Positions 45,758 through 61,617 of a stretch of DNA of 64,000 nucleotides are shown in pieces. A program made the translations under genes and the position numbers. Every line of letters starts with the position of its first letter. Position 1 is the stretch's first letter. Source of the DNA: Terriglobia bacterium (GTDB lineage: Bacteria > Acidobacteriota > Terriglobia > JAJPHL01); assembly GCA_021325275.1 (NCBI GenBank), contig JAJPHL010000054.1, forward strand, positions 62,001-126,000. The letters run 5' to 3'. Below the pieces are notes generated by a model that worked only from the letters and a program-made list of their open reading frames with translations, had not been told where the DNA came from and did not search any database.

Positions 45758-46324
45758 ATGATCGCGGTTTCGGAAACATTCAAGCGAAAACGTCGTCCGT
45801 GGGTGTGGAAGACCGACTTGCTGCTGCGAACCATCGGTCTCCTGCTGTGGTTGGTGGCTTCAGGCTGGGCGGCTCTCAAGCTTCCGGCGTTAGGGTGGAT
45901 GATTTTTGTTCAGTCAACCCCGCAGATCGCCGAGCCCAGCAGCGGGCAACAGAGTGGAGACACGCCGGTAGTGGGTTGGAAAGTGCTCCGGGGTCTGGAT
46001 TACCACACCGGCGCGAAAACTGCGGAACTGGCGCGCCTCGAGGGCACTGTCGTCAGCATTCCGGGATACATCGTGCCGCTGGAAGACGAGACCGATGCGG
46101 TTTCGGAGTTCCTACTGGTACCTTATCTAGGAGCTTGCATCCACGTGCCTCCGCCTCCGGCAAATCAGATGGTCCAGGTGCACGTGTCGTCCGGCAAGAA
46201 GAAGCTGAGCCTGTGGGACGCCGTATTGGTGGAGGGAAAACTGAATGTGGGCGCTTCCCAGAGCGCCTATGGAAATGCCGCGTACTCGATGAACGCGCAG
46301 CGAATCTCGCCCTACCGGCAATAA
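45758..46324 (+). CDS. DUF3299 protein 1, membrane-anchored
   Basis: A 188-residue protein with one N-terminal membrane anchor (about residues 22-50) and a periplasmic DUF3299 domain: GWKVLRGLDYHTG, IPGYIVPLEDE, EFLLVPYLGACIHVPPPPANQ. Cys and His in ACIHVPPPP are conserved in all three paralogues of this cluster (48299 and 51225), suggesting a metal or thiol site. DUF3299 genes travel with DUF2796/ZrgA and MacB-type ABC genes in zinc-regulated loci. ATG 45758 is a weakly supported start; GTG 45728 is possible. The upstream 252-base gap shows no clear promoter. Confidence 0.87.
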   Translation: MIAVSETFKRKRRPWVWKTDLLLRTIGLLLWLVASGWAALKLPALGWMIFVQSTPQIAEPSSGQQSGDTPVVGWKVLRGLDYHTGAKTAELARLEGTVVSIPGYIVPLEDETDAVSEFLLVPYLGACIHVPPPPANQMVQVHVSSGKKKLSLWDAVLVEGKLNVGASQSAYGNAAYSMNAQRISPYRQ

Positions 46325-46333
46325 AGAATCACC

Positions 46334-47719
46334 ATGTCAGCCCTTAAGCTGTCGATCTTGATTGTTTGCGTGTTGCTTGTTCCAACGCCTGCCGTATCCG
46401 CGGCGGACTGGCCGCAATGGCGCGGACCCACGGCCGACGGTATCTCCTTGGAACGCGATCTCCCGGTGCAATGGGACCGCGAGCATAACATTGCTTGGAA
46501 GGCTCGTCTTCCCGGCTTGGGGACATCGACGCCCATTGTGTGGGGCGATCGCATCTTCGTAACCTCGCAGATCGGAGACGGTCCCATCGGTGAAGGTCCC
46601 GTGGCTGGGCCTGCGCGCGACTTTCCGGGTAGTCCGCCGGCGCGCCGCGGCGGCGTCCAGGAGAGAGTTCGTTTTGCAGTGCAGGCGTTTGACCGCGCCG
46701 ATGGCAAGATGGCTTGGGAGTACGTTTTCGACGCCGAAGGCGAACTGCCGCCGACACACACCATGCACAACTTGGCAACGCCGAGCTGCGTCACCGACGG
46801 CAACGTCGTCTACGCCTGGTTTGGCACCGGTCAACTGGTGGCCCTGAGCCTGAATGGCAAGCTCGTCTGGAAACGTCATCTCGGCAAGGAGTATTCGCCC
46901 TTCTTCGTGCTGTGGGGCCACGGCAGTTCGCCACTTCTCTACAAAGACCGCCTGATCTTGCTTTGCGATCACCGGGACGCATCGTATTTGCTGGCTCTGG
47001 ACAAGACCACTGGAGCGCAGCTTTGGAAAGTGGATCGCGGCAAGGATAGACGATCCTACTCGACGCCGGTGGTGATTCCAAGTCCAGACGGCCGCGACCA
47101 GATTCTCGTCAACGGCAAGGAGCGGATCGACGTATACGATGTCGCAACCGGCGAGCTGCGCTGGTACGTGGGGCAAGCGGTGACCCTGGCGGCGCCTTGC
47201 CCCGTGCTGCACGACGGCATGCTATACGTCACGCGCGGGTACAGCAGCGGTCCCTACTCGGCTGTGGAAATCGGCGGTCTCGGCGACGCCAGCTCGCGAG
47301 TGAAGTGGGAAATAAAGACCGGCGCGCCGTACATTACCTCACCACTCTATTATCAGGGCGTGATGTACCTCGCCGGTGAGACGGGCGTGGTGACGGCGGC
47401 GGATGCCGCGGACGGCAAGTCCTTGTGGAAAGCGCGAATCGGCGGTATCTTTTCGGCTTCTCCCGTGGAAGCGGACGGAAAGGTGTACCTGCTGAACGAG
47501 GACGGCGAAACGATTGTGCTGGAGGCCGGCCGGGAACTGAAGATCCTGGCGCGCAACCAGTTGGAGGAGCGCATGCTCGCGTCGCCGGCAATATCGGGCG
47601 GCCAAATTTTTGAGCGCTCCGACGATCATTTGATTTGCATCGGCAAGGCGACAAAACGACGCCCGCTCACGGGCGGAAATCATCCTTTGACGGCTCAGGG
47701 CCCGCCCGCTCATCACTAA
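46334..47719 (+). CDS. Exported PQQ-binding-like beta-propeller protein
   Basis: A 461-residue protein with a signal peptide (KLSILIVCVLLVPTPAVSAA) and an eight-bladed PQQ-type propeller: ADWPQWRGPTADG, IAWKARLPGLGTSTPIVWGDRIFVTS, and repeated W-x-V-D/A-G-x-x-Y blades such as TTGAQLWKVDRG. It resembles BamB-like or acidobacterial propeller proteins of unknown role rather than an alcohol dehydrogenase, since no catalytic Asp/Cys pair is visible. It sits 9 bases after DUF3299 protein 1, inside the metal-related cluster. Confidence 0.9.
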   Translation: MSALKLSILIVCVLLVPTPAVSAADWPQWRGPTADGISLERDLPVQWDREHNIAWKARLPGLGTSTPIVWGDRIFVTSQIGDGPIGEGPVAGPARDFPGSPPARRGGVQERVRFAVQAFDRADGKMAWEYVFDAEGELPPTHTMHNLATPSCVTDGNVVYAWFGTGQLVALSLNGKLVWKRHLGKEYSPFFVLWGHGSSPLLYKDRLILLCDHRDASYLLALDKTTGAQLWKVDRGKDRRSYSTPVVIPSPDGRDQILVNGKERIDVYDVATGELRWYVGQAVTLAAPCPVLHDGMLYVTRGYSSGPYSAVEIGGLGDASSRVKWEIKTGAPYITSPLYYQGVMYLAGETGVVTAADAADGKSLWKARIGGIFSASPVEADGKVYLLNEDGETIVLEAGRELKILARNQLEERMLASPAISGGQIFERSDDHLICIGKATKRRPLTGGNHPLTAQGPPAHH

Positions 47720-47758
47720 TTGCTAGGCCAAACGCACCTTGGAATCCCAAAATACTCC

Positions 47759-48289
47759 ATGCGTTGGATTCCCGCGTTTTTCATGAGTTGTCTCTTGCTC
47801 GCTCCCGCGCCCGCGCGGGCGGCCGATCCGCTGTCGCGCACCCTCCGCGAGCAATACAAGATGATGAAAAACTTCCTGGTATACAGCGGCGACGCCATGC
47901 CGGAAGAACATTACAGCTACAAACTGACCCCCACGTGGCGAACCTTTAGCGAATACATGATCCATGTCGCGGAATCGAACTTCATCTCGTGTTCCACCAT
48001 CCGCATCGTTCCGCAGCCGGACATCAAACTGACGCCGGCGATGAGCAAAGCCGAACTGATGAAGGCCGTCAAGGACTCGTTTGACTTTTGCGATCCCGCA
48101 TTCCTGACCATGACCGATGCAAAGGCGCTCACGCCGATTAAGTCCGGCGACCGCACGCTCGCGCCCGCCGAGGAGATGGTCGCGCTCACCAATTCGCTCT
48201 ACGAGCATTACGGCAATGTGGCTTGTTATCTGCGGATCAAGGGAGTCACGCCGCCCTCCACGCTGCGGACGCAGCGAATCATGCAATGA
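47759..48289 (+). CDS. Exported DinB-like four-helix protein
   Basis: A 176-residue protein with a signal peptide (MRWIPAFFMSCLLLAPAPARA) and a DinB/YfiT-like helical region: EQYKMMKNFLVYSGDAMPEEHYSYKLTPTWRTFSEYMIHVAESN, and a C-terminal ALTNSLYEHYGNVACYLRIKG. The His residues in AEYMIHVAESN- and LYEHYGN-type positions match the metal-binding triad of the family. Exported DinB proteins are common in Acidobacteriota and may bind nickel or zinc. ATG 47759 gives the signal peptide. Confidence 0.85.
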   Translation: MRWIPAFFMSCLLLAPAPARAADPLSRTLREQYKMMKNFLVYSGDAMPEEHYSYKLTPTWRTFSEYMIHVAESNFISCSTIRIVPQPDIKLTPAMSKAELMKAVKDSFDFCDPAFLTMTDAKALTPIKSGDRTLAPAEEMVALTNSLYEHYGNVACYLRIKGVTPPSTLRTQRIMQ

Positions 48290-48298
48290 AAGAGGATT

Positions 48299-48733
48299 AT
48301 GAAAACCCTCCGCTCGTTTGTCGTACTGCTGATCCTTGCCTTCGCGGCGGTCGCCGCCACGCCCGACGCGCCGAAGGTCCAGTGGAAGATGCTGCGCGGC
48401 CTGAACTACAAGACCGGCGACCGTTCCGCCGAATTGAAGGAAGTCGACGGCAAGATCGTAAAGATTCCAGGCTTCATGGTGCCGCTGGAGGACGAAAGTG
48501 ACACCGTTACCGAGTTTTTGCTCGTTCCGTACCAGGGAGCTTGCGTGCACACGCCTCCTCCGCCTCCGAATCAAATCGTGGAAGTAAAAATGGACGGCGG
48601 AAAGAAAGCCAAGTTCGATTTCTGGAACCCCATTTGGGTTCAGGGGAAGCTGGAAATCCAGACCGTCAAAAGCATTTACGGAGATGTGTCCTTTAAGTTG
48701 ACGGGCATGACGATCGAGCCGTACAAGGACTAG
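48299..48733 (+). CDS. DUF3299 protein 2, secreted
   Basis: A 144-residue protein with a signal peptide (MKTLRSFVVLLILAFAAVAA) and a full DUF3299 domain: QWKMLRGLNYKTG, IPGFMVPLEDESD, EFLLVPYQGACVHTPPPPPNQ. The conserved Cys-x-His appears again. AGAGG lies 5 bases before the ATG. Probably periplasmic. It lies directly before the DUF2796/ZrgA-like gene (3 bases), so the two are probably translated together and act together. Confidence 0.92.
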   Translation: MKTLRSFVVLLILAFAAVAATPDAPKVQWKMLRGLNYKTGDRSAELKEVDGKIVKIPGFMVPLEDESDTVTEFLLVPYQGACVHTPPPPPNQIVEVKMDGGKKAKFDFWNPIWVQGKLEIQTVKSIYGDVSFKLTGMTIEPYKD

Positions 48734-48736
48734 AGA

Positions 48737-49240
48737 ATGCGTTTACTCCTCTCACTGTTCTTGACCGCGGCATTGCCGGCGGCCGCCCAGAGTAAAACGA
48801 AACCGCCGCACGTGCATGGCGCCGCCAAGCTGAACATCGCCATAGAAAACAAGACCGTGACGATTCAATTCGAGTCTCCGGCCGATTCGATTGTCGGCTT
48901 CGAGTACACCGCCAAGTCCGACGCCGACAAGGCCAAGCAGGAGGCGGCTCTCGACACGCTCAGGAAGCGAATCGGAGAACTGGTGTTGTTCGAAGTCAAG
49001 TCGGCCTGCCGGTTCACGCCGGGCAAGGTGGCCGTGGAGAAAGATCCCGGCGAAGACCATTCCGATGTGAAGGCGGAGTTCACGGGGACCTGTTCCGGTA
49101 CCTTCCGAGGATCGGTTCTGCATTTTGGTTTTTCTCGCATCTTCCCGCGCGTCGTCGACGTCGACGTTCAACTCCTCAATGGCGAGCAACAGGCCGGGGC
49201 CAAAATCCATAACGACCAAGGGTCGATCGTGCTTCGCTAG
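48737..49240 (+). CDS. DUF2796 / ZrgA-type metal-binding exported protein
   Basis: A 167-residue protein with a signal peptide (MRLLLSLFLTAALPAAA) and the family's N-terminal HVHG motif (PPHVHGAAKLNIAI), followed by FESPADSIVGFEY and the C-terminal RIFPRVVDVDVQLLN. In Vibrio, a DUF2796 protein is the ZrgA component of the ZrgABCDE zinc uptake system. The long His-rich insert typical of that family is missing here; only EDHSD remains. Two Cys (SACRF and GTCSG) could form a disulfide or metal site. It is followed by the ABC ATPase gene. Confidence 0.86.
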   Translation: MRLLLSLFLTAALPAAAQSKTKPPHVHGAAKLNIAIENKTVTIQFESPADSIVGFEYTAKSDADKAKQEAALDTLRKRIGELVLFEVKSACRFTPGKVAVEKDPGEDHSDVKAEFTGTCSGTFRGSVLHFGFSRIFPRVVDVDVQLLNGEQQAGAKIHNDQGSIVLR

Positions 49241-49249
49241 AAACAACGT

Positions 49250-49966
49250 ATGACTACAACCAACCCCGCGGTCGCCGCGGAATCCGCGTTACGACTTCAA
49301 GATGTCTGCTTCTCCTACCGGCCGGATCGTTTGATTCTGCAAATTCCATACATGGAAATTGCCGCGGGGCAAAGCGTATTCATCTTTGGTCCGAGCGGTA
49401 GCGGCAAGACGACGTTGTTGGGGCTGCTCGCCGGCGTTCTGAAGGCGTCGAGCGGCCAAGTCATGGCGCTGGGCCGGGATCTTTCGAAAATGTCCAATTC
49501 CCAGCGCGACCACTTTCGCGGATCGCACGTCGGTTATATTTTCCAGATGTTCAACCTGATTCCGTACCTCACGGTCGAAGAAAATATCGCTTTGCCTTGC
49601 CGTTTGGATTCGGAACGCCGCCACCGTCTCAACGGCGTCCCGTTGCACGATGCGGTGCGCGAAACGGCCTCGCACCTGGGAATCGAGGCGCTGCTCCACG
49701 AGAATGTGACGAATCTCAGCGTCGGCCAGCAGCAACGTGTGGCCGCGGCTCGCTCTCTGATTGGCACCCCGCAACTGGTCATTGCCGACGAGCCAACCTC
49801 CTCGCTGGACTTCGATCGCCGGGAACGATTCATCAAGCTTCTCTTCGAGAATTGCCGGGCCGCGCGCTCGACTTTGATCTTCGTCAGCCACGACCGCACG
49901 CTGATGCCCCTGTTCGAACGGTGTGTTTCGCTGCCAGAACTGAATCGAGCCGCCCAAAGTTTATGA
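49250..49966 (+). CDS. ABC transporter ATPase, MacB/LolD type
   Basis: A 238-residue cytosolic ATPase with Walker A (GPSGSGKTT, about residues 48-56), the GYIFQMFNLIPYLTVEENI Q-loop region, signature NLSVGQQQRVAAARSL and Walker B (LVIADEPTSSLD). This sequence type pairs with FtsX/MacB-like permeases of type VII ABC systems. The stop overlaps the permease ATG by ATGA. The neighbours (ZrgA-like and DUF3299 proteins) suggest a metal-linked envelope function. Confidence 0.95.
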   Translation: MTTTNPAVAAESALRLQDVCFSYRPDRLILQIPYMEIAAGQSVFIFGPSGSGKTTLLGLLAGVLKASSGQVMALGRDLSKMSNSQRDHFRGSHVGYIFQMFNLIPYLTVEENIALPCRLDSERRHRLNGVPLHDAVRETASHLGIEALLHENVTNLSVGQQQRVAAARSLIGTPQLVIADEPTSSLDFDRRERFIKLLFENCRAARSTLIFVSHDRTLMPLFERCVSLPELNRAAQSL

Positions 49967-51228
49967 TTCTCCTATCGCTGGCCTGGCATTCGCTGAAGAA
50001 TCGCAGACTCACAACGGGCCTGACGGTCGTATCGATTGCACTCAGCGTCGCGCTGCTGGTCGGTGTGGATCTGGTGCGGGTCGGCGCACGCGACAGCTTC
50101 GCGAACACTATCAGTCAAACCGACCTGATTGTCGGCGCGCGCGGCGGGTCGTTGACGCTGCTGCTTTACTCTGTGTTCCACATGGGCAGCGCCACCAACA
50201 ACGTGTCGTACCAGTCGTACCTGCATTTCAAGAATCACGCGGCGGTGGAATGGACGATTCCCTACTCGCTCGGCGACAGCCATCGCGGATTTCGCGTGGT
50301 CGGCACGACCAACGATTTTTACGAGCACTTCCACTATCACCGCGACCGCAAGATCGAGTTTGCCGAAGGCCGCATGCCGGACGGCATCTTCGACACCGTG
50401 CTGGGATGGGACGTGGCGCAGGCGCTCCACTACAAGATTGGCGACCCCATTGTCGTGACGCACGGCATCAGCGAAGGCCGGGGCATCCTGCAGCACGACG
50501 ACAAGCCGTTTCACGTGGTGGGCATTCTGGCGCGGACCGCCACGCCGGTGGATCGTTCCGTTTACGTCACGCTCTACGGCATTTCGGCGATGCACATCGA
50601 CTGGGCGGACGGCGGCCCGCCCATGCCCGGCGAGGAAACGCCGGTTTCGAAAATCACCAAGGACAATCTCGAGATCAAGCAGATCACCGCGTTTCTTGTC
50701 CGCTGCAAGTCGCGCATCGACACGCTGGGCTTGCAGCGGGAGATCAATACGTTTGAAGACGAACCGCTGATGGCGATCATCCCGGGCGTCGCGTTGAGCG
50801 AATTGTGGAACACCATTGGATATGCCGAGGAAGCGCTAACTGTCGTTACGTTTTTTGTCCTCGTCGTGGGACTGCTCGGAATGCTCGTGTCCCTATACAC
50901 ATCGTTGAATGAACGGCGCCGCGAGATGGCGATCCTGCGAGCGGTCGGCGCCGGCCCGCGCAAGGTGATTTTCCTGTTGGTACTGGAGTCGGGACTCCTG
51001 GCGCTTGCCGGCACCTTCCTCGGCGTGACGGGCATTTATGCCGTTTCGGCGTTGACGCAGCCGCTCGTCGAACATCGCTTCGGGATGTTTATTCCCGTCA
51101 CGCCCCCTTCGACGACGGGCTACGTCTATATCTGCGCCGTGGTCGTGGCCGGCCTTTTGATCGGCACTGTCCCGGCCGTCAAGGCGTATCGCAACGCACT
51201 AGCCGATGGTCTGAGTATACGAGTATGA
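49963..51228 (+). CDS. ABC permease, FtsX/MacB type
   Basis: A 421-residue permease with one N-terminal helix (residues 18-40), a large periplasmic domain (about 45-280) rich in Asp/His such as the DFYEHFHYHRDRK stretch, and three C-terminal helices with the FtsX pattern (RRREMAILRAVGAGPRKVIFLLVLESG). FtsX-type permeases generally drive efflux or mechanical work across the envelope, unlike classical zinc importers. ATG 49963 overlaps the ATPase stop, and the stop overlaps DUF3299 protein 3. Confidence 0.93.
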   Translation: MILLSLAWHSLKNRRLTTGLTVVSIALSVALLVGVDLVRVGARDSFANTISQTDLIVGARGGSLTLLLYSVFHMGSATNNVSYQSYLHFKNHAAVEWTIPYSLGDSHRGFRVVGTTNDFYEHFHYHRDRKIEFAEGRMPDGIFDTVLGWDVAQALHYKIGDPIVVTHGISEGRGILQHDDKPFHVVGILARTATPVDRSVYVTLYGISAMHIDWADGGPPMPGEETPVSKITKDNLEIKQITAFLVRCKSRIDTLGLQREINTFEDEPLMAIIPGVALSELWNTIGYAEEALTVVTFFVLVVGLLGMLVSLYTSLNERRREMAILRAVGAGPRKVIFLLVLESGLLALAGTFLGVTGIYAVSALTQPLVEHRFGMFIPVTPPSTTGYVYICAVVVAGLLIGTVPAVKAYRNALADGLSIRV

Positions 51229-51686
51229 GATCGACAAACAGTCCTGCCCTCGGTCTACTCTTGGCAGCGCTTCTCGCCGCCTTTTTGATAAACAGGGCCC
51301 AAGCCCAAGCAGCCAAGGAACCGGAAACGGTTGATTGGATTCGTCTGCGCGGTTTGAACTACAAGACCGGCAAAATCAACGCCGACGCCAAAGCGCTCGA
51401 TAAAGCGCGCATCAGGATTTTGGGATACATGGTGCCCTTCGAGGACGAAGATAAGGAAGTGACCGAGTTCCTCCTGGTTCCCAACATGGCCTGCATTCAC
51501 GTCCCCGCACCGCCGCAAAATCAAATCATTTTAGTGCAGATGGCCGGCGGCAAGAAGGCTCCCGCCGCATTGGGGAAAACTTTTTGGGTCGAAGGATTGA
51601 TGGCAATTGAGACGTCGAAAAGTGCGTACGCCGTCGCTTCCTATCGCCTCTCCGCGACCAAAGTGCAACTCGCGAAGGAAGAATAG
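51225..51686 (+). CDS. DUF3299 protein 3, secreted
   Basis: A 153-residue protein with a signal peptide (PALGLLLAALLAAFLINRAQA) and a DUF3299 domain: DWIRLRGLNYKTG, ILGYMVPFEDED, EFLLVPNMACIHVPAPPQNQ. The Cys-x-His is retained although the flanking residues have diverged (NMA in place of Y-x-G). It overlaps the permease gene by ATGA and ends the cluster, 26 bases before the convergent exporter gene. Confidence 0.91.
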   Translation: MRSTNSPALGLLLAALLAAFLINRAQAQAAKEPETVDWIRLRGLNYKTGKINADAKALDKARIRILGYMVPFEDEDKEVTEFLLVPNMACIHVPAPPQNQIILVQMAGGKKAPAALGKTFWVEGLMAIETSKSAYAVASYRLSATKVQLAKEE

Positions 51687-51712: not shown

Positions 51713-52609
51713 CTAGCCGAACAGCCACTGGATCACCACGCCGGCCGTCACGCTGGAGAGCAAAAGATATCCCAGGATTGCGAGCGTGTCTCGCAGATTC
51801 TTGTTCTCTCGCAACAGGACGAGTGAACCCAGCCCGCACCCGGACGCCAATCCTGAAATCGTCGAGCCGTAGCTAATCACGCCGCGCAAATACATCTCCG
51901 CGATCGCCACCGAAGCCGCGCAGTTGGGAATCATACCGATCAGCGCCGTAAGCAATGGCTGCCAGATCGAACGCGGCAGAAAGAAGCTGGCGAGCCGCTC
52001 CCTTCCGATATGCGAAAACCCATAACCGGCCGCAAAGGTGATGAGGAAAATGAAGCCCGAAATCTTGGCGACATGAAGCAGCGGATGAACGATCAGATCC
52101 TTCACGCTTCGTCCATTGCCGACCGTGTGGCCGCAGCAAGCGTCTTCGATCACTTGATGATCGTGGTGGCAGGTTCCCTGTTCCGCCGCCAGCGCATGTT
52201 GCCGCACGCCTCGATTCCGCCGCCGATAGAGCGCGTCGAGCGTGTATCCGACTACCAACCCCAGACACATTTTTGTGGCGATGAGCGGCAAGATCACGGC
52301 GATTTTGTCGCGATGCGACAAAATCACTGGAATCGCTTCGTCGGAAGTTGAGATCAGGACCGCCAGTAGCGTGCCGATCGTCACGACGCCCTGGGAGTAA
52401 AGCGCCGCCACGACCACGGAAAATCCGCATTGGGGAATCGCGCCCACCACCGCCCCGATCGCCGGCCCGGCGCTGCCGGCTTTCTGAACGTACTCCTTCA
52501 GGTTCTTGCTCCAGCGGTACTCCAGCAACTCCACGGCGACGTAGACGATGTACAGCAAGGGCGCCATCTTGACGGTGTCAAGCAGCGCGTTCTTCAGGAT
52601 TTCGTCCAT
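51713..52609 (-). CDS. Putative 10TM metal exporter (ArsP_2 / putative manganese transporter family)
   Basis: A 298-residue membrane protein of two internally similar halves; the motifs GAIPQCGFSVVVAALYSQGVVTIGTLLAVLISTSDEAIPVIL (first half) and GMIPNCAASVAIAEMYLRGVISYGSTISGLASGCGLG (second half) mark the family. The central loop carries a dense Cys/His patch (CHHDHQVIEDACCGH, about residues 147-161) that likely binds metal. The true ion is unknown; relatives are named manganese or arsenical exporters. Its ATG overlaps the stop of the sugar isomerase gene. Confidence 0.88.
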   Translation of the reverse strand: MDEILKNALLDTVKMAPLLYIVYVAVELLEYRWSKNLKEYVQKAGSAGPAIGAVVGAIPQCGFSVVVAALYSQGVVTIGTLLAVLISTSDEAIPVILSHRDKIAVILPLIATKMCLGLVVGYTLDALYRRRNRGVRQHALAAEQGTCHHDHQVIEDACCGHTVGNGRSVKDLIVHPLLHVAKISGFIFLITFAAGYGFSHIGRERLASFFLPRSIWQPLLTALIGMIPNCAASVAIAEMYLRGVISYGSTISGLASGCGLGSLVLLRENKNLRDTLAILGYLLLSSVTAGVVIQWLFG

Positions 52610-53484
52610 CAGCTCAGCTTCAGCTTGTGAAGGTAATCGAAGCTTTGACGCAGACTTTCAACCGGGTCGCCGGAAGTCTGATCCTGCTCGACAAAGTAGT
52701 GCCGCACGCCGGCCGCGGACGCCGCGCGGAGGATCGAGGGAATGTCGAGCACGCCATTGCCTACTTCCTTGAAAGCTGTGCGGGGTACCGACTCGTTGTA
52801 TTGGACGGGCATGCCCTCCGCCTTGTTCTTGAGATGCAAGAGAGGAATCCGGCCGGCGTTTTGGCGCAGAAGTTCCACGGGATCGTGGCCGCCGACGCTC
52901 ACCCAAAAGATATCCATCTCCCACCCGACCAGCGCTTTGTCGGTGCGGTTGAGAAGCGTCTCCATGCCGGTCGTCCCGGCCATGGGTTCGAACTCGAAGG
53001 CATGGTTGTGATAGCAAAATTGCATGCCGGCCTTGCGGCATTCCTCCCCGGCGCGGTTCAAAGTGTCCGCCAGGGACTTGATTGCATCAAGGCCGCCGCG
53101 CTGGTTCGGCGGAAGATAGGGGTAGACGGTGTATTGGAATCCCAGTTCTTTGCAGCGCGCGATCGCGGCCGTCAACTGGCTGGTCTTCTCGGGTGAGAAG
53201 AGTGCGGAATCCAGATGCATGCTCACGGGTTTCATCCGGAATTTCTTGAAATCCGCCCAGATGGCATCGAGGGTCGCCCAAGTGAGTTCGGCCTCTCGAT
53301 AACCGATTTGATCCAAGGCTTCAAACGTCTGAGCCGCCTTCGCGCCGAGGACGCTGCGAACCGTATAGAGTTGGACGCCGATGGATTGCAGCGGATCGGG
53401 CGGTGCACCGCCCGAAGCAAGTCCCGCGGCGGAAAGCGTCAGCGCCGAGGATCGAATGAAATCACGCCGCGAAGTAGTGTTCAT
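52609..53484 (-). CDS. Tat-exported sugar phosphate isomerase/epimerase-like TIM barrel
   Basis: A 291-residue protein with a twin-arginine signal (TSRRDFIRSSALTLSAAG) and a xylose-isomerase-like TIM barrel (IGVQLYTVRSVLG, MQFCYHNHAFEFEP, GWEMDIFWVSVGGHDPVELL, HYFVEQDQTSGDP). The His/Glu/Asp residues of the divalent metal site are in place. Such exported barrels are frequent in Acidobacteriota and Planctomycetes and act on sugars of unknown identity. Its start overlaps the methyltransferase end by four bases. A sugar enzyme in this metal run is unexplained. Confidence 0.9.
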   Translation of the reverse strand: MNTTSRRDFIRSSALTLSAAGLASGGAPPDPLQSIGVQLYTVRSVLGAKAAQTFEALDQIGYREAELTWATLDAIWADFKKFRMKPVSMHLDSALFSPEKTSQLTAAIARCKELGFQYTVYPYLPPNQRGGLDAIKSLADTLNRAGEECRKAGMQFCYHNHAFEFEPMAGTTGMETLLNRTDKALVGWEMDIFWVSVGGHDPVELLRQNAGRIPLLHLKNKAEGMPVQYNESVPRTAFKEVGNGVLDIPSILRAASAAGVRHYFVEQDQTSGDPVESLRQSFDYLHKLKLS

Positions 53485-54068
53485 GGCTTGCTCCCTATGA
53501 ATTCCGCTACGCCCCGTCCGCGCACAGGCCGCTCTTGGTATTCCACAACGTGCAGGCCCGGAACTAGTGACCGTAACTCGTCCCTCTGAAGCGGACTGGT
53601 CGCGGCTCCCGGTATTGTAGCGCTGCCGTTCCACCGGATGGCCATCTTGCAAATAAAAAGCCCACCGGAATTCAACGCCGAAACGATCCGAGGAAACAGA
53701 CCGCGATCCAGGTGATAAAACAGGACAATCGTATCGTACTGCGAGCGTTGAAAGTCGTATTTCGCGGCGTCCAAGGCGAATAGATCGAGTTCGAGGCCAA
53801 GATCACGCGCCTCCTGACGAAGCTGTTCGATCGCGACCGCCGACACATCCACCACACTCATCTTCCATTTTCTGGCGGCTAACCACAGCGCGTGGCGGCC
53901 CAGCCCTCCAGCCACGTCCAATCCCGTTCCTCCATTGGGGAACTTTGGAACAACAAACCGATTGCAAGCCGATAGAAAAAACGGATCGGGCACGGTCAGG
54001 GAGGGCAGGCGATCTCGATACTTGAGATCCCACGCCGCTCCCTGATCCGGCAAACCGCCACACTCCAA
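53481..54068 (-). CDS. Class I SAM-dependent methyltransferase (TehB-like)
   Basis: A 195-residue Rossmann-fold methyltransferase: WDLKYRDRLPSL at the N-terminus, SAM-binding GLDVAGGLGRHALWLA, acidic loop VVDVSAVAIEQL and a YDTIVLFYHLDRGLF motif. The pattern is closest to TehB-type enzymes that methylate tellurite, selenite or small thiol/oxyanion substrates. The gene starts 2 bases before the end of the TonB receptor gene on the same strand and overlaps the isomerase gene downstream, fitting co-transcription in the metal run. Confidence 0.88.
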   Translation of the reverse strand: MECGGLPDQGAAWDLKYRDRLPSLTVPDPFFLSACNRFVVPKFPNGGTGLDVAGGLGRHALWLAARKWKMSVVDVSAVAIEQLRQEARDLGLELDLFALDAAKYDFQRSQYDTIVLFYHLDRGLFPRIVSALNSGGLFICKMAIRWNGSATIPGAATSPLQRDELRSLVPGLHVVEYQERPVRGRGVAEFIGSKP

Positions 54069-54069
54069 A

Positions 54070-56832
54070 CTAAAAATGGAAGCCCACGGTCGCCGTGACC
54101 GTGCGTGGCGTAACGTAGTGCGTTCCGCTGAACGTCGAGAGGAAATTGTACAACGCGTAGTTGTTCAGGAGATTGACGACTGCCACGCGCGCACTCCACT
54201 TGTACCGGTCGCCGTGGAAAATGTTGTCGTGGCCGATCGCCAAGTCGAACAGATTGCGCGACCCGATGCGCGGCGGATTGTGATCGTCATCCTCTTTGCC
54301 GGGCGCCGGAACCTTGATGAGCGTCGATCCGTACTGGGCCGCGGGGCAGAATCCCGTGGCGCTGATCGGCGTGAGGGGCGTGGCATGGACGCTGCCGCAG
54401 AACAATCCCGCTTGGAATTGCTGATCGGGCGACAAGCCGGAAACATCGACGATGGAATCGGTGCCGTTGGGTCCGTTGTTGCAGTTTCCGCCCGCGCACG
54501 GCACCGGGCCGGCGACCAATCCGCTGTCATAACGCCAGTTGAATCCGATCCAAGGACCGTTTTTCCGCGGTTGAAATTGCAGGTGCGTCGTTTGATTGAA
54601 AACTTCGTCGTGATCGATGCGGAAGACCGTGCTCGTGCCGGTCGAAGTCGGCGTGGAACCGAGGCCCGCGACTTGCGGCGTGAAAAAGCGCGCGGCGACG
54701 CTCGAGAAAGCCACGTACGCCGTGAGTCCGTGGAAGTTCGGCATGCTGGCGCGCACCGCGTAGCCCGGGATTTTCGAGCTGTACCACTCAATGGGGAAGG
54801 TGATGGGCGTGGATCCCAAAATGCTGAAGTCGTAGGCGCGATGCGTGTACTTCCAGATGTACTCGCCGTCGATGACCAGATACTTTCCGAATGCTTGCTG
54901 GATGCCGGCGTGATATTCGTCGCGGCGACCGGGTTTTTCTGGAACGTCCAGGCATGGATATCCTTGTAGGACGGTCAACAGTTCGCCGACCAACGGATCG
55001 CTGCATCCATGGCTCGCCAGCACTTGATTCTCGTTAAAGGGCGTTTCCATTGTCCGCGCGTAGGAAACGCGCAACACGGTGCCGGTCGGCTTGATGTTGT
55101 AGGCGATTCCTCCGCGCGGCTCGATTTCATTCATGTTTGCGAAGCCGTGATACGCGTCAAAGCGCGCGCCATAGTTGAAATTCCAGTTCTTGATCGTCAC
55201 CGAATCCTGGAAGAACACCGCGGTCTGCGTCACGACGCCGTTGCCCCGAAACGTGTAGGGCGCCGCGTGAGCGGCCGGGCAGCCGTTGGACGCCGGCAAG
55301 GTTCCGGTGCGCGTTAGGTCCACGCAGGCGAGCACGGGATCGAACGCCGGGTTCGATTGAGTTGTTCCCGCACAGTTGTTCGTATCGGTGACACCAGGCG
55401 CCGTGACGGGCGTGACGCCGTCGGCGAGCAGACACGGCGCGTTCAGCGTGGGGTCGACAATCGAGAGAACATCGGTCTCGGTCAATCCGGTATGTTCGAA
55501 CAGCACGCCGACTTTCATGTTGTGAATGCCCTTCACGTGCGAGACGTCGGCATGGAATCCGGAGTTGCTCAAGCGGCGGCTTTGGCCGATGCCTTCACTT
55601 TGCAGGTTGGGCGTGAAATCCGCGAACGGGTCGCGGCTGGGATAATAGATGAACTGATCGCGACGGAAAAACCCGCCGATGGTGAGAACCGTCGTGGGAC
55701 TGAACAGATGCGTCCACGTCGGCGCGATGTTGATCGTGTCGATCTTGGCGCGCTGATCGCTCGATCCAACCGGCTTGCCGTCCGGGCCGAGGCCTTTGTT
55801 GTCCACGACCACTCCGGTCCACGCGGTGGCCAGTTGGCCGTCGAAGGAATTCGGCGTCTGAAACCACGAACGCGTGAATCCCAGGTTGAGATTGAAAGTG
55901 TCCGCGGAGTTCGGTTTGTAGTCGATGCGATCCCAAAGGTTGGTTAGATTTCCTTTGTCGTGCATCACGGAAAATTCCGGCGGGTCCAAGAAACGGCCGC
56001 TGGTGAGACCGCTCGCCGAGATGAAATTCCCCCACTTGTCGTTTCCGGTGGAGAGATTGAAACCAAGATTGGCCGTTCCGAAGGAACCGTACGACGCCGT
56101 GGCTTCGCCGTGCGGCTGCTTCACGCCCAAACCGGATCGCGTGGTCACGACGATCACGAGACTCGTCTTGTCGCCGAATTCCGGCGGCGGCGCGCCCTGG
56201 ATCACTTCCAGCGATTGCACCGCGTCGAGCGGAAGTTGGTTGGAAAATATCTTACTCTGCTGGTCGGTGATCGGCTGGCCGTCGACCGAGAAGGAATTTT
56301 CGGCATGATCGCCCATGCCATGGAAAAGCCCGTTGGAATCGGCCGCGACGCCCGGAGCCGACAACGTCACGAGCGAACTCAGCGAGGACGACCCGCTTTC
56401 GAGAGGCACTTTGTCGAAGAGTCCGCGATCCACGTCGGTGTGCGTGACGGGAATGTTTTCGAGCAAATCTTCCCTGGAGGTGGTGACCTCGATCGTCTGG
56501 TTGGCCGTGCCCAGCTTGAGCGCGATCTTCACGTCGATGGGCACGCCCGAGCGCAGGTTCACGTCCTGCTCACCGGTTTGAAAACCCGGCTTCGAGACCG
56601 TCAGATGGTAGTTGTTGTACGGCACGTTCGTGAACGCGAACGCGCCACTGTTGTCCGTCGTGATCGTCGCGCTAAAATGCGACACGGGATTCTGGATCGT
56701 AACCGTCGCGCCGGGGACCACCGCTTGCGAGGGATCGGAGATCACGCCCTGAATCGTGCCGCTGTTTGATTGCGCGAATGCGCCAAACGAAAACACACCA
56801 AGAGCTGCAGCTAGACACACCAGTCTTGTCAT
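54070..56832 (-). CDS. TonB-dependent receptor with carboxypeptidase-regulatory-like N-terminal domain
   Basis: A 920-residue outer-membrane protein. It has a signal peptide (MTRLVCLAAALGVFSFGAFA), then a CarboxypepD_reg-like domain (about residues 22-110: GTIQGVISDPSQAVVPGATVTIQ), a plug domain (SFSVDGQPITDQQ, LPLDAVQSLEVIQGAPPPEFGDK) and a large beta-barrel ending in an aromatic C-terminus (TATVGFHF). ATG 56832 is chosen for the signal peptide. It follows the CzcA-like pump gene by 116 bases. In this place a TolC-like factor would normally be expected, so it may serve metal passage across the outer membrane. Confidence 0.92.
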   Translation of the reverse strand: MTRLVCLAAALGVFSFGAFAQSNSGTIQGVISDPSQAVVPGATVTIQNPVSHFSATITTDNSGAFAFTNVPYNNYHLTVSKPGFQTGEQDVNLRSGVPIDVKIALKLGTANQTIEVTTSREDLLENIPVTHTDVDRGLFDKVPLESGSSSLSSLVTLSAPGVAADSNGLFHGMGDHAENSFSVDGQPITDQQSKIFSNQLPLDAVQSLEVIQGAPPPEFGDKTSLVIVVTTRSGLGVKQPHGEATASYGSFGTANLGFNLSTGNDKWGNFISASGLTSGRFLDPPEFSVMHDKGNLTNLWDRIDYKPNSADTFNLNLGFTRSWFQTPNSFDGQLATAWTGVVVDNKGLGPDGKPVGSSDQRAKIDTINIAPTWTHLFSPTTVLTIGGFFRRDQFIYYPSRDPFADFTPNLQSEGIGQSRRLSNSGFHADVSHVKGIHNMKVGVLFEHTGLTETDVLSIVDPTLNAPCLLADGVTPVTAPGVTDTNNCAGTTQSNPAFDPVLACVDLTRTGTLPASNGCPAAHAAPYTFRGNGVVTQTAVFFQDSVTIKNWNFNYGARFDAYHGFANMNEIEPRGGIAYNIKPTGTVLRVSYARTMETPFNENQVLASHGCSDPLVGELLTVLQGYPCLDVPEKPGRRDEYHAGIQQAFGKYLVIDGEYIWKYTHRAYDFSILGSTPITFPIEWYSSKIPGYAVRASMPNFHGLTAYVAFSSVAARFFTPQVAGLGSTPTSTGTSTVFRIDHDEVFNQTTHLQFQPRKNGPWIGFNWRYDSGLVAGPVPCAGGNCNNGPNGTDSIVDVSGLSPDQQFQAGLFCGSVHATPLTPISATGFCPAAQYGSTLIKVPAPGKEDDDHNPPRIGSRNLFDLAIGHDNIFHGDRYKWSARVAVVNLLNNYALYNFLSTFSGTHYVTPRTVTATVGFHF

Positions 56833-56948
56833 TTCACTATGATGACAACGCGACCGATGATCCTTTGAATGGAAACCGGCAGACGGACCGGTCACGCCGG
56901 TGAGCGGGGCCGATTCGCCCGCAAGCGGACGCTGCTCGTTTGCGCCGT

Positions 56949-59900
56949 TTAGACCTGTAGCGTGTCGCCGTCGCGCGCCACAATCGCGTACAACACGGGC
57001 GCGAGAAATACCGAGAGCAACAATCGCGACAACAATCCGCCGACCACCACGATCGCGAACGGTTTTTGCGAATCGCTGCCGATGCCGGTGGAGATCGCCG
57101 CGGGCAGCAAGCCGAAGCACGCGACGAGCGCGGTCATCATGATGGGACGCAGCCGCAGCACGCTCGCTTCGAGGGTCGCTTGCATGATGCTCTTGCCTTC
57201 GAGTCGCAGTTTGTTGATGAACGAATACAAGATCACGCTGGTTTGCACGGCGACTCCCATCAGCGCGACGAATCCCAGCATCGACGACACGCTGAAGTTT
57301 GTTTTCGTCACGTAGAGCGCCAGCAATCCGCCGACCGGTTCGGTCACAAGCACCGAGAAGAAAATAATCAGCGGGAATTTCAGGTTGCCGTAGAGCGCAA
57401 ACAGAATCATGAGGATCAGAATCACGGTGAGCGGCCCGATGATCTTCATCTGATCGATCGACGCGAGATATTCCTTGTACTCGCCGCCCCAATCCATGCG
57501 ATAGCCGATCGGCAGTTTCACCGCGGCGTCCACTTTTTTGCGCGCCTCGCCGACGGCGCTCGCCAGATCGCGACCCTCCACGCTGTACTGCACGCCGATG
57601 TAACGCGAATTCGACTCGCGATAAATGAACGACGCGCCCAAATCTTGCTGGATGTCGGCGAATTCGCCGAGCGGCAGGTTTTGCCCGTCGGGCGTGGCGA
57701 TCAACAGGTTCTTGATGGACGTTTGGTCGCTGCGATATTTCTCCTGCATGCGCACGATCAAGTCGAATTGCTTTTCACCGTGGATCACTTGCGTGGCCGC
57801 CTTGCCGCCCATCGCCGTTTCCACCATCGTGTTGATGTCCGAAACGTTCAAACCGTAGCGGGCGATCTTGGCGCGATCGGGCACCAGCGTCAAATTCGGC
57901 TGGCCGAGTTCCTTCACCACGGTGATTTCCTTGATGCCCTCCACTTTGGTAAGAATGTTTTTCACCTGCGTGGCTTTGTCTTCCAGCGTTTTTAGATCGG
58001 GGCCGAAGATTTTCACCGCCAGCGCGCTCTTCAATCCCGTTTCCGCTTCGTCCACGGCGTCCTCGGCGGGCTGCGTGTAGTTGAAGATGATGCCGGGGAA
58101 CGTCGCGAGTCTTTTCTGGATCGCCTCAGTCAATTCCGCTTTGTCGTGGATCTCGCCGGACCACGCCGCGTCGTCGTAGGGTTTCAGGCCCACGTAAAAC
58201 TCGTTGTTGAAGAATCCCGTGGTGTCGGTGCCGTCGTCGGGGCGTCCCAGTTCGTTCGCGACGGTGGTCACTTGCGGAAATCCGAGCAGGATATTGCGGA
58301 TTTGCGGCGAGAGCTTCGACGCTTCCTCGAATGAAATTGTGTAAGGCGTCGTCGCGCGCACCCACAAGGCGCCTTCGTCGAGATGCGGCATGAATTCGCC
58401 GCCAATCAGTGGAATCAACAGCAGCGATGTCGTGAAAACGGCGAGCACCAACACCACCGTTACCGTGCGATTCTTCAGGCACCAGCCGAGCACGCGGCCG
58501 TATCCCCCGCGCAGCCATTCATAGAACCGCGCGCGCGGCTCGCGGACGTTGCGGCGAAGGAAATACGCGCACAGCACCGGCAACACGGTCAACGCGCACA
58601 GCAATGCGCCGAGCAGTGCGAACGACATGGTGTCGGCCATCGGCTGGAAGAGCCGTCCCGACGGTCCGGTGAGCACATAGATCGGCAGATATCCCGCGAT
58701 GATCACGGCGACCGCGTAGAAAATGGGGCGCTCGACGTCGCGCGCCGCGGCGCGGATCACTTTGTTTACGTCGGGCTTCGTCCCTTGTTGCGCGGCCAGC
58801 TCGCGGAAAATGTTTTCCACCATCACCACCGAGCCGTCCACGATGATGCCGAAATCGATCGCGCCGATGGAGAGCAAGTTCGCCGGAATGTGCCGCCAGT
58901 CGAGACAAATGAAGGCGAAGAGCAGCGCAATCGGAATCGTCACCGCGACAATGAGCGCCGCGCGCAGATCGAGCAGAAACAATCCGAGGATCACCAGCAC
59001 CAGCAACATGCCGCGAACGAGATTGCGCTCTACGGTGCGCGTGGTTTCCTCGATCAATCCTTGGCGATCGTAGAAAGGAACCACTTTCACGTCAGGCGGC
59101 AGGATATGTTCGTTCAACTCCTTGGTCATTGCCTCGACGCGTTGCAGGATCACCTGTGCTTGCTCGCCCACGCGCATCAGGATTACGCCTTCGACGGCTT
59201 CGTCCTGCTTCATGTAGCCAAACTGCCCGAGGCGCGGCGCGTGGCCCACTTCCACTTCCGCGATGTTTTTCACGAGCACCGGAGTCCCGTGATTCTCCGC
59301 GACGACAATGTTGCCGATGTCTTGCGTCTGCTTGACGAGACCGAGTCCGCGGATGTAGAAGAATTGTCCGCCCTGCGAGTAAAATCCGCCGCCGGCGTTC
59401 GAATTATTGTTGGTGAGCTGATTGAAAATCGTGGGGACCGATACTCCGTACGCGAAAAGCTTGTTGGGATCGAGCAGCACTTGATACTGCATGGTCGTTC
59501 CACCGAAGCCGGAATCGTCGGCCACACCTTGGATCGAACGATAATTGCGCTCCAGCACCCAGTCCTCGATGATTTTCAAATCCTGCGGCGAGCGATCGGG
59601 GCTTTGAATCACGTAGCGGTAAATCAATCCGCTGGGACTAAACAGCGGCGAGAGCGACGGCTGCAATCCCGGCGGCAGCGTCGCTTGCGGAACGCGCTCG
59701 AACGCCTGCTCGCGCACGAAATACGGGTCGGCGCCGTACTCGAAATTCATTTGTACCGACGACAAGCCATAGAGCGAAATCGAGCGCAACGCTTCCAATC
59801 GCGGAATGCCGTTCATTTCGATTTCCAGCGGCACCGTGACCAATCGCTCGACTTCTTCCGGCGAGTGTCCCGGCCACTGCGTGATGACCTCAACGTGCGG

Positions 59901-60032
59901 CGGCGAAAGATCGGGATATGCGTCGATCGGCAGCTTCTGAAAAGAGATCACGCCCCACACCATCAAGAATCCGGCGATGATGAGGATGAGAAACCGCTGC
60001 GAAAGCGCGAAAGAAACGAGCCTGGAGATCAT
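56949..60032 (-). CDS. HME-type RND efflux pump, CzcA/CusA-like
   Basis: A 1027-residue inner-membrane pump of the heavy-metal-efflux RND family. Helix 4 carries the charged motif GAIDFGIIVDGSVVMVEN (residues 390-407), with Asp393, Asp399 and Glu406, typical of divalent cation (CzcA) types; other features include PGHSPEEVERLVTVPLE and IYRYVIQSPDRSPQDLK. It exports Co, Zn, Cd, Ni, Cu or Ag depending on subtype; the ion is not assigned. The ATG overlaps the adaptor stop by ATGA. Confidence 0.96.
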   Translation of the reverse strand: MISRLVSFALSQRFLILIIAGFLMVWGVISFQKLPIDAYPDLSPPHVEVITQWPGHSPEEVERLVTVPLEIEMNGIPRLEALRSISLYGLSSVQMNFEYGADPYFVREQAFERVPQATLPPGLQPSLSPLFSPSGLIYRYVIQSPDRSPQDLKIIEDWVLERNYRSIQGVADDSGFGGTTMQYQVLLDPNKLFAYGVSVPTIFNQLTNNNSNAGGGFYSQGGQFFYIRGLGLVKQTQDIGNIVVAENHGTPVLVKNIAEVEVGHAPRLGQFGYMKQDEAVEGVILMRVGEQAQVILQRVEAMTKELNEHILPPDVKVVPFYDRQGLIEETTRTVERNLVRGMLLVLVILGLFLLDLRAALIVAVTIPIALLFAFICLDWRHIPANLLSIGAIDFGIIVDGSVVMVENIFRELAAQQGTKPDVNKVIRAAARDVERPIFYAVAVIIAGYLPIYVLTGPSGRLFQPMADTMSFALLGALLCALTVLPVLCAYFLRRNVREPRARFYEWLRGGYGRVLGWCLKNRTVTVVLVLAVFTTSLLLIPLIGGEFMPHLDEGALWVRATTPYTISFEEASKLSPQIRNILLGFPQVTTVANELGRPDDGTDTTGFFNNEFYVGLKPYDDAAWSGEIHDKAELTEAIQKRLATFPGIIFNYTQPAEDAVDEAETGLKSALAVKIFGPDLKTLEDKATQVKNILTKVEGIKEITVVKELGQPNLTLVPDRAKIARYGLNVSDINTMVETAMGGKAATQVIHGEKQFDLIVRMQEKYRSDQTSIKNLLIATPDGQNLPLGEFADIQQDLGASFIYRESNSRYIGVQYSVEGRDLASAVGEARKKVDAAVKLPIGYRMDWGGEYKEYLASIDQMKIIGPLTVILILMILFALYGNLKFPLIIFFSVLVTEPVGGLLALYVTKTNFSVSSMLGFVALMGVAVQTSVILYSFINKLRLEGKSIMQATLEASVLRLRPIMMTALVACFGLLPAAISTGIGSDSQKPFAIVVVGGLLSRLLLSVFLAPVLYAIVARDGDTLQV

Positions 60033-61216
60033 TGATAGCTGTTCGCGAACTGGAGGAACAATCCGCCCTCGGCAACTACCTTCTCGCCTTCCTTCAATCC
60101 GCTGAGAATCTGGATGCGATCGCCCGCCTGATCGCCCACCGTCACGGATCGCTGCGCGAACTTGCCCGGCTCCACTTCCACGTAGACGATCGGCGAATTC
60201 TGCGCGTCGCGCAGTACGGCGCTGACGGGCAGCGCCAGCACGCTCTTCTTCACGCCGGTGTGGACCACGGCATTCACGAACATGTCTTTCTTCAATAGAC
60301 CCTCGGGATTTTGCGTGACGATCCGCACCGGAGTGGTGCGTGTGGTGGGGTCGACGAACGCGCCGATGAACGACACCGCGCCGTGAAATTTGCGATCAAA
60401 CGCGGGATTCGTTTCGTCCACTTGATCGCCGGAGCGAACGCTCGGCAGATCGTGGTCGAAAATGTGTCCCTGCACCCAAACGTGCGAAACGTCGCTGAGC
60501 ATGAAGCAAACCGTTTGTCCCGCTTGAATCACCATGCCCGGCGAGATCAGTTTTTGCACCACCACGCCCGCGATCGGCGCGCGTACGGCGAGTTCCGGGT
60601 TGATCACTTTGCCTTGTTGCTCGGCCGCCTCGATTTCTTCGCGCGTGTGTCCCAGGACTTTCAACGTTTGCAGGCTCGTCTGCACGTCGGTCATGGCGTC
60701 GTTGTAGTCGGCCACGCTCGACTCGTAATCTTTTTCGGCGATCGCGCCGTGATCGAGCAGGGTTTTCTGGCGATCGACGATGCGTTTGTTGAAATCTTCG
60801 CGATTGCGCGCCTTGCGATAGGCGGAAATCGCGTTGGCCACGTCGGGACTCGAGACGTAGAGCAGGGGATCGTTCGCTTTCACCACAGCGCCGGTGTCCA
60901 CCAGGATGCGCGAGATCGGCCCGTTCACCTGCGTGATCGCTTGTGTGGTGTGATCGGCGTCCCAATCGACGGTGCCGGTGGTGGTCACCGCGACGGCCCA
61001 GTCGACGTGCTCGACGGGCGCGATCTTCAAGTGGCTCATCTGATTCTCGGGCACGGCGAACAAGCTGGGCGTGGACTTGTCGTTCTTGTCGTTGCCCGCG
61101 GGGTACGCGCCTTTGCTGTCGGCCGCTTGCGCCGACACCGAGCGCTCCAGCGATTTCGAGCAGGCAAGTTGCAAAATAGTCAGGCCCAATAAAAGGGCCG
61201 CCAAAATATACTTCAC
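60029..61216 (-). CDS. RND periplasmic adaptor, CzcB/CusB-like lipoprotein
   Basis: A 395-residue membrane-fusion protein. A lipoprotein signal ends at the lipobox LQLAC. The hairpin/barrel-sandwich region contains GTVDWDADHTTQAITQVNGPISRILVDTGAVVKANDPLLYVSSPD, followed by a coiled coil and beta-barrel (HVWVQGHIFDHDLPSVRSG, PVRIVTQNPEGLLKKDMFVNA). It links the CzcA-like pump to the outer membrane. GTG 61216 is preferred because GAGGAG lies about 9 bases upstream. No CzcC/TolC gene is beside it. Confidence 0.94.
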   Translation of the reverse strand: MKYILAALLLGLTILQLACSKSLERSVSAQAADSKGAYPAGNDKNDKSTPSLFAVPENQMSHLKIAPVEHVDWAVAVTTTGTVDWDADHTTQAITQVNGPISRILVDTGAVVKANDPLLYVSSPDVANAISAYRKARNREDFNKRIVDRQKTLLDHGAIAEKDYESSVADYNDAMTDVQTSLQTLKVLGHTREEIEAAEQQGKVINPELAVRAPIAGVVVQKLISPGMVIQAGQTVCFMLSDVSHVWVQGHIFDHDLPSVRSGDQVDETNPAFDRKFHGAVSFIGAFVDPTTRTTPVRIVTQNPEGLLKKDMFVNAVVHTGVKKSVLALPVSAVLRDAQNSPIVYVEVEPGKFAQRSVTVGDQAGDRIQILSGLKEGEKVVAEGGLFLQFANSYQ

Positions 61217-61277
61217 GGTCTTTCTCCTCTCTGGGAGAGACAAAAATGCAATCAAGAAAAATGCGAGGGAGAGAAGG

Positions 61278-61541
61278 TCAGACCGGAGGCGCGCGCGGCG
61301 GGCAGGAAGGCGTAGCGGCTTCTTTCTCTTGCCGCGCGGCGGCGATCACAATGTGCTGCACCAGCACGGCGAGCGGCGCCACGTGCGTCACCAGCGCGGA
61401 ACCGACCAACGGCAGATGCAGCGCCTGGCACGCGGGACATCCGTCGTCGGGTCCTTGACAGTGGCACGGAGCCAGCATCGTGGACGCCAAACTGATCGCC
61501 AGGAGCGCGATCACGCGAATATAGGTTGAGTGCCGCAACAT
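61278..61541 (-). CDS. Small exported Cys/His-containing protein
   Basis: An 87-residue protein with a hydrophobic N-terminal segment (RVIALLAISLASTMLA) and a cluster CHCQGPDDGCPACQALHLP, then a second hydrophobic region and a Pro-rich tail. It is reminiscent of small periplasmic proteins that accompany metal efflux genes, such as DUF2946-like ones, but I cannot name a family. ATG 61541 (MLRHSTYIRV) has AGAGG upstream. It is the first gene of the minus-strand run and is divergent from the RcnR-like regulator. Confidence 0.72.
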   Translation of the reverse strand: MLRHSTYIRVIALLAISLASTMLAPCHCQGPDDGCPACQALHLPLVGSALVTHVAPLAVLVQHIVIAAARQEKEAATPSCPPRAPPV

Positions 61542-61586
61542 AACCTCTTTCAAATCTATACGATCTAGCGAAAACATTCAGAGGTC

Positions 61587-61615
61587 TTGACGTGCATGCT
61601 ATACTCCCCTATAGT
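61587..61615 (+). promoter_or_regulatory. Putative promoter overlapping the regulator operator
   Basis: TTGACG (61587-61592), 17-base spacer, TATAGT (61610-61615). The predicted start would fall just after the ATG at 61616, so a second -10 (TATACT, 61600-61605) with a weak -35 may be used instead. Either way the operator covers the promoter. Confidence 0.45.
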
Positions 61616-61617
61616 AT
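61601..61617. promoter_or_regulatory. Putative RcnR/CsoR-family operator
   Basis: ATACTCCCCTATAGTAT: inverted ends ATACT/AGTAT around a four-C tract, the layout of RcnR and FrmR sites (TACT, G/C tract, AGTA). It overlaps the start codon region of the regulator gene and the promoter. It lies in the 74-base divergent gap shared with the Cys-rich protein and CzcB-CzcA genes. Confidence 0.7.

Follow-up and report, generated by a model that had tools for sequence, protein, structure and literature searches.

The function of the Zrg systems is disputed, being described as zinc import in Vibrio and as pyochelin-cobalt export in Pseudomonas. In Vibrio the zrgABCDE operon is repressed by Zur and induced on zinc starvation (PMC9817125), and V. 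cholerae without znuA needs zrgA for zinc-limited growth (PMC9820375, PMC9817125), while in Pseudomonas aeruginosa both pyochelin and cobalt accumulate in mutants of PA4065, which belongs to the PA4063–PA4066 set (PMC11481552). The common set comprises ZrgA (DUF2796), the ATPase ZrgC, the permease ZrgB of the ATP-binding cassette (ABC) type and ZrgE (DUF3299), abbreviated below as A, C, B and E. Here an operon of eight plus-strand genes is described at positions 45758–51686 of a 64,000-nucleotide stretch (the window) of a Terriglobia bacterium genome (contig JAJPHL010000054.1, positions 62,001 to 126,000). Judged by its gene content, the operon is a genuine Zrg (ZrgA-C-B-E) system and therefore an already known, though little-understood, kind of ATP-driven, zinc-linked inner-membrane machine; new are three old DUF3299 paralogues, numbered 1 to 3 in operon order, and two extra genes in an acidobacterial Zrg operon.

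Like ZrgABCDE of V. cholerae and V. parahaemolyticus, the window holds ZrgA, ZrgC, ZrgB and ZrgE homologues in a single operon and keeps zinc site 1 of ZrgA; unlike it, the window has three ZrgE genes against one, places ZrgE before ZrgA, lacks ZrgD and carries extra genes for a pyrroloquinoline quinone (PQQ)-type β-propeller and a DinB-like protein. Whereas Vibrio zrg is zinc-regulated, the window operon is known here from its genes. With PA4063–PA4066 it shares the A-C-B-E set in the same order, the DUF3299 core (CIHVPPPPSNQ in PDB entry 4hsp) and the PA4063 zinc site, while P. aeruginosa has one DUF3299 gene, at the operon end, and PA4063 has His-rich stretches that are missing from the window ZrgA. 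The window permease is homologous over its full length to the permeases of A-C-B-E operons (P. aeruginosa plasmid, Phaeobacter, and others) and has signature residues in common with them. On the NCBIfam equivalog model NF047873 the window ZrgA scored 75 against a cut-off of 185. No ZrgD (DUF2607) was found among the operon proteins; zrgD is also missing in V. fischeri and P. profundum, so that ZrgD is not defining for Zrg (PMC9817125). No MacA-type adaptor is present within the operon, the adaptor in that part of the window belonging to a resistance-nodulation-division (RND) pair at 56949–61255, and neither a ZnuA-type solute-binding protein nor an ABC-3 permease (ZnuABC, cluster A-I) was found in the operon or the genome. 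The initial annotation had proposed an acidobacterial Zrg-like system, with which the presence of all three Zrg core families and the one conserved zinc site kept in ZrgA agree.

The constant core of these systems is ZrgB/C together with DUF3299, and ZrgA is not its defining partner. A scan of relatives' genomes gave 20 loci, mostly from Bryobacterales-type Acidobacteriota but also from Edaphobacter, Bdellovibrionota and Leptospiraceae. In all 18 loci with a continuing contig the ATPase and permease genes come after DUF3299, and ZrgA stands between DUF3299 and the ATPase in 14 of them, being missing from L055, L057, L058, and L059. Further acidobacterial genomes show E-C-B without ZrgA (L031–L034) or E-A-C-B (L036); on proteobacterial plasmids the order is A-C-B-E (P. 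aeruginosa, Phaeobacter) or A-C-B-E-E (Pseudooceanicola, Rhodobacteraceae SC52, and Sulfitobacter); Catenovulum has C-B, DUF3299 and, near it, MerC, with no ZrgA, and in L044 MerC comes after ZrgB. Of 199 Acidobacteriota genomes, 12 gave a match to the ZrgB clade, and the 11 in which DUF3299 was detected are all among these (11/11 against 1/188; Fisher p 3e-17, uncorrected for kinship). The clade is distinct, its members aligning over the periplasmic half, whereas other FtsX proteins stay below 65 bits and nearly all align in the C-terminal domain only. In the twelfth ZrgB genome (G151) a divergent DUF3299 adjoins the permease (L143); in G096, G123, and G165 the Pfam-detected DUF3299 genes are distant from the permease, and consequently the association is more than linkage. 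Neither finding that would have contradicted the initial annotation, loss of Cys-x-His among homologues or absence of these families together elsewhere, was borne out: canonical DUF3299 proteins keep the Cys-x-His, and DUF3299 accompanies the ABC pair in genomes well beyond the window.

Judging from its model, the window permease is a type VII ABC protein (MacB/LolCDE/HrtB fold with MacB_PCD plus FtsX architecture): the model is of moderate confidence (predicted local distance difference test, pLDDT, 77), and the nearest Foldseek folds are LolE, MacB, HrtB, and FtsX. As in LolCDE, FtsEX, and HrtBA, the ATPase is encoded separately; unlike MacB, LolCDE, FtsEX, and HrtBA, the window permease has an invariant periplasmic His/Asp signature, and no MacA/TolC or lipoprotein partner was seen. 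Residues D105, R111, G136, H167, G168, H178, T192, D197, and H211 are invariant in 37/37 aligned ZrgB-clade permeases from four phyla, and D105, R111, H167, H178, T192, D197, and H211 are kept in 11 clade matches of the 199-genome scan, several of which are genes among the 37. Matches to the motif HG-x(4-20)-H...GIL..T....D were obtained in 50 of the 65 positive loci, most of the others being without a permease, and in 0/47 other FtsX loci; since the motif was built from the positive loci, this control measures specificity and not discovery. Position 107 is His in permeases paired with canonical DUF3299 and Tyr or Phe in partners of a distant acidobacterial DUF3299 subfamily, a correspondence for which one ancient split might account. 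Poly-His stretches lie within the ZrgB periplasmic domain in L117–L119, and the H167–H178 loop in L120 reads HGLHGEGDHHDHKH. The invariant His and Asp residues suggest a candidate metal site within the motor itself. The window genome (G000) also contains 93 FtsX-domain matches, many in frames of 800–1000 amino acids resembling ADOP-type duplicated permeases.

All three DUF3299 proteins match PA4066 (4hsp; expectation value, E, about 1e-22 to 2e-19), and for the AlphaFold2 model of DUF3299-2 (pLDDT 88) the best Foldseek match is again 4hsp, followed by many generic oligonucleotide/oligosaccharide-binding (OB) folds; the likeness of PA4066 to the OB fold has been reported already (PMC8561739). 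In the 6.86 Mb host genome PF11736 finds three domains, all in the operon. The ACxHxPxPP core pointed out in the initial annotation reads A-C-[IV]-H-[VT]-P-x-P-P-x-N-Q in all three proteins, and C-x-H-x-P is kept in 50/50 canonical members (49/50 by the strict pattern; the Marinobacter member reads CIHVPPPA). DUF3299 genes with no adjoining ABC pair were seen in L074, L075, L077, and L079 (Vibrio fortis, Marinobacter, Rhizobium etli, and Phaeobacter plasmids), the V. fortis one near amidohydrolases.

The layout of the window recurs in L052 with four DUF3299 genes (E, DinB remnant, E, A, C, B, E, E), where a decayed DinB-like gene at 9390–9846 (45% identity over 9673–9846) takes the place of the intact one. 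The tree joins DUF3299-3 to the L052 copy at 12918–13334, each lying directly after ZrgB (support 80/89); DUF3299-2 groups with the pre-ZrgA copies of L052 and L041–L043 (94/65) and corresponds in position to the lone DUF3299 that relatives carry ahead of ZrgA; the fourth L052 protein groups with copies of two other genomes (98/91), DUF3299-1 takes no firm position, and the Rhodobacterales pairs form two clades of their own. Two copies per ABC are found in Rhodobacterales, three in the window and four in L052, and loci L061–L063 of the distant subfamily have the orders C-B-E-E and E-C-B-E-E. According to the tree and the multi-copy loci, additional DUF3299 copies are found repeatedly, go back a long way in this lineage and have more than one origin. 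A recent tandem duplication in the window was ruled out by the 45–49% identity to paralogue 2 and the separate tree positions. The enlargement by DUF3299 duplication that had been proposed for this locus therefore holds as to the multiple copies but not as a simple local event, since the paralogues are old and diverged, at least two have positional counterparts in another genome, and multi-copy loci recur independently.

The window ZrgA matches PA4063 and V. cholerae ZrgA, is without the long His-rich loop and keeps site 1 (H25, H27, the Glu of GFE, and the His of EDHSD) together with both disulfide Cys; the described site-1 ligands are the two His of HxH, the Glu of GFE, and a later His (PMC9820375). 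Across 16 aligned homologues no change is apparent at HxH, at the later His or at either Cys, and a single member lacks the Glu. By Pfam, however, ZrgA was detected only in the window genome among 297, and ZrgA as the core of the system was ruled out by its patchy occurrence across genomes that keep the pump. Where ZrgA is missing, zinc-type partners turn up. In locus L141 at 5314–8862 (G059) five genes follow each other on the same strand, encoding a regulator of the FUR family, a solute-binding protein of the ZnuA type (PF01297, E 3e-61), ZrgC, ZrgB, and a DUF3299-like protein that is divergent and was assigned by eye. Here a Zrg motor seems to be coupled with a classical zinc-binding protein, although ZnuCB is encoded roughly 7 kb from this row. 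In L142 at 6455–10133 (G096) a CobW/COG0523 GTPase gene is divergent from ZrgC/ZrgB, and the periplasmic domain has eight consecutive His. In Pseudooceanicola, where ZrgA is present, a zinc/ZnuA-type solute-binding protein, two GTP-binding proteins, and DUF1826 come before A-C-B-E-E, and in Phaeobacter a Fur-family gene precedes A-C-B-E; DUF1826 and COG0523 are known from Zur-regulated clusters (PMC2770081).

Taken at about even confidence, these data describe a ZrgA-C-B-E type zinc-starvation machine for ATP-driven hand-over of zinc in the periplasm, the simplest model for a motor with a His/Asp signature, a zinc-binding loader and constant OB-fold partners with Cys-x-His. Because MacB-type transporters work in the periplasm without carrying substrate through the inner membrane (PMC5985334), the type VII fold favours periplasmic work over transmembrane import. 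ZrgC would hydrolyse ATP on the cytoplasmic side, and ZrgB would relay the movement to its periplasmic domain, where the His and Asp residues may form a single metal site, and would so shift zinc, or a chemically similar metal, among soluble periplasmic carriers. ZrgA would deliver the metal, as would the ZnuA-type protein in another genome, while the OB-fold DUF3299 protein, as an obligate partner, would accept or release the metal; the three paralogues would serve as separate acceptors or adaptors on a single motor, one of them probably membrane-anchored. The bolder proposal, that this is a distinct class and not a zinc importer, in which the permease site passes metal to DUF3299, loading is done by ZrgA or a ZnuA-type protein interchangeably and the number of clients per motor depends on the DUF3299 copies, is offered tentatively.

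Several observations weigh against periplasmic hand-over. PA4066 was reported without evident zinc binding (PMC11481552), and it has the identical CIHVPPPP motif; the V. cholerae zrgD and zrgE single knockouts grew normally (PMC9820375), with which an essential DUF3299 fits badly. The distant subfamily (L061–L068 and L040, adjoining a ZrgB-clade permease in L040, L061–L063, and L066) has the Cys but reads C-[CYH]-[FW]-G or much the same where canonical members have C-x-H, so that the candidate ligand common to both groups is the Cys, whereas the His depends on the subfamily. A Zur-box search of the window with the V. parahaemolyticus core gave no match, although the acidobacterial box may differ, and the host genome has one FUR-family gene only. 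The upstream regions of eleven relatives' loci, compared by eye for a common palindrome, showed promoter-like conservation and no convincing operator. The H167–H178 loop is modelled poorly (pLDDT below 50), and the model consequently does not establish that the signature residues converge in space. Finally, the published models, import for Vibrio and export for Pseudomonas, both differ from hand-over.

The first of these, a true zinc importer of the sort suggested for V. cholerae and V. parahaemolyticus, in which ZrgA is the solute-binding protein, ZrgBC takes zinc into the cytoplasm and DUF3299 is accessory, appears somewhat unlikely here. In its favour, besides the zinc-repressed operon and zrgA dependence of Vibrio, the host genome (a draft assembly, 97.6% complete) gave no match to ZnuA, ABC-3 (ZnuB) or ZIP. 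Of the 199 genomes, 101 have an ABC-3 match (some very weak), 138 have ZIP and 23 have neither; both are lacking in 5/12 ZrgB genomes against 18/187 others (p 0.006), an enrichment that is suggestive only, three of the five being of one genus. The lack in the host was set aside as strong proof of zinc import, because most of the 23 genomes without both are also without Zrg. The ZnuA-type protein adjoining ZrgCB in L141 fits import too, but it could instead serve the normal ZnuCB pair encoded nearby; moreover, many pump-keeping genomes are without ZrgA, and the best-studied type VII member carries no substrate through the inner membrane.

Rather improbable is MacB-type export of a metallophore, alone or in complex with metal, which would ease intracellular chelator build-up in zinc starvation as proposed for PA4063–PA4066. 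The pyochelin and cobalt accumulation in PA4065 mutants, the MacB-like permease fold and the Oar-type outer-membrane proteins adjoining the cluster in several Bryobacterales speak for it; yet the operon is without a MacA-type adaptor (the HlyD/CusB protein at 60029–61255 goes with the RND pump), the invariant His/Asp and poly-His are better suited to bare metal than to a bulky chelator, and the spread over four phyla would argue against one siderophore.

Detoxification or envelope metalloenzyme maturation for a non-zinc metal (copper, cobalt, and nickel) by NosDFY- or CcmABCDE-like periplasmic cofactor delivery has only a slim chance, since the Cys-x-His, which suits Cu(I) as well as Zn, the DUF3299 OB fold with CcmE among the weaker Foldseek matches (rank 14) and the metal efflux genes near the operon are set against characterised relatives and ZnuA, CobW, and FUR-family neighbours that indicate zinc starvation, and the CcmE match is generic OB-fold similarity (template modelling score, TM, 0.43), retained as analogy only. 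CcmABCDE and NosDFY, whose ABC permease is of another kind than the Zrg permease, are comparable in working only, as an ABC motor with a periplasmic OB-fold (CcmE) or metal chaperone (NosL), with no sequence kinship shown.

The operon genes (Table 1) are separated by gaps of 0–9 bp, apart from ATGA overlaps at the ATPase/permease and permease/DUF3299-3 junctions. The initial annotation listed the three DUF3299 genes, DUF2796, the ATPase, the FtsX-type permease and the ATGA overlaps correctly, but omitted the propeller and DinB-like genes; as these sit between DUF3299-1 and DUF3299-2, the operon is longer than it had described. DUF3299-1 has two candidate starts (GTG 45728 or ATG 45758) and is probably membrane-anchored, as predicted from an N-terminal hydrophobic segment. 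The window ATPase is about 47–70% identical to same-position ATPases of relatives.

Table 1. Genes of the operon and its convergent neighbour, in window coordinates
Feature	Position	Strand	Evidence
DUF3299/ZrgE paralogue 1	45758..46324	+	PF11736 E 2e-35; PDB 4hsp E 1e-22; core CIHVPPPPANQ
PQQ/BamB-type β-propeller, secreted by appearance	46334..47719	+	PF13360 E 8e-28; 9-bp gap after DUF3299-1
Weakly DinB-like secreted protein	47720..48289	+	PF05163 E 0.07, under cut-off
DUF3299/ZrgE paralogue 2	48299..48733	+	PF11736 E 1e-34; predicted OB fold
ZrgA (DUF2796)	48737..49240	+	PF10986 E 2e-29, over cut-off; PDB 7ahw E 4e-13, 8ezw E 7e-8
ABC ATPase, ZrgC-like	49250..49966	+	PF00005 E 4e-30
ABC permease, ZrgB-like	49963..51228	+	PF12704 (MacB_PCD) + PF02687 (FtsX)
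DUF3299/ZrgE paralogue 3	51225..51686	+	PF11736 E 5e-28
ArsP_2/NF037962 heavy-metal (arsenic-type) permease, CHHDH...CCGH loop	51713..52609	-	PF11449 E 5e-25; NF037962 E 4e-79, over cut-off

The convergent ArsP_2 gene probably lies outside the operon. It opens a region (51713–63833) rich in metal efflux, with an Oar-type outer-membrane protein, an RND pump with its CusB/HlyD adaptor, and a P-type ATPase whose N-terminus is rich in His. In other genomes a large CarboxypepD_reg/OMP_b-brl_4 outer-membrane gene is divergent from DUF3299-A-C-B (L045 at 5756–9619; also L046, L047, L049, L050, and L053), and an Amidohydro_3 gene lies directly before DUF3299-C-B in L032 and L033, as does a member of the same BLAST cluster in Edaphobacter (L059). 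The δ-aminolevulinate dehydratase (ALAD) adjoining the L038 cluster was ruled out as a zinc-independent HemB paralogue, its zinc Cys motif DVCNCEYTSHGHCG being kept.

In summary, the general result is the ZrgB/C-DUF3299 core with a putative metal-site signature in ZrgB, which makes DUF3299, a domain-of-unknown-function family, rather than ZrgA the protein to look at. The dispute on import and export becomes directly testable by ZrgB D105, H167, H178, D197, and H211, by the DUF3299 C-x-H and by natural rewirings such as a ZnuA-type protein in a locus without ZrgA. For bacteria without detectable ZnuABC and ZIP the system is a candidate zinc route.

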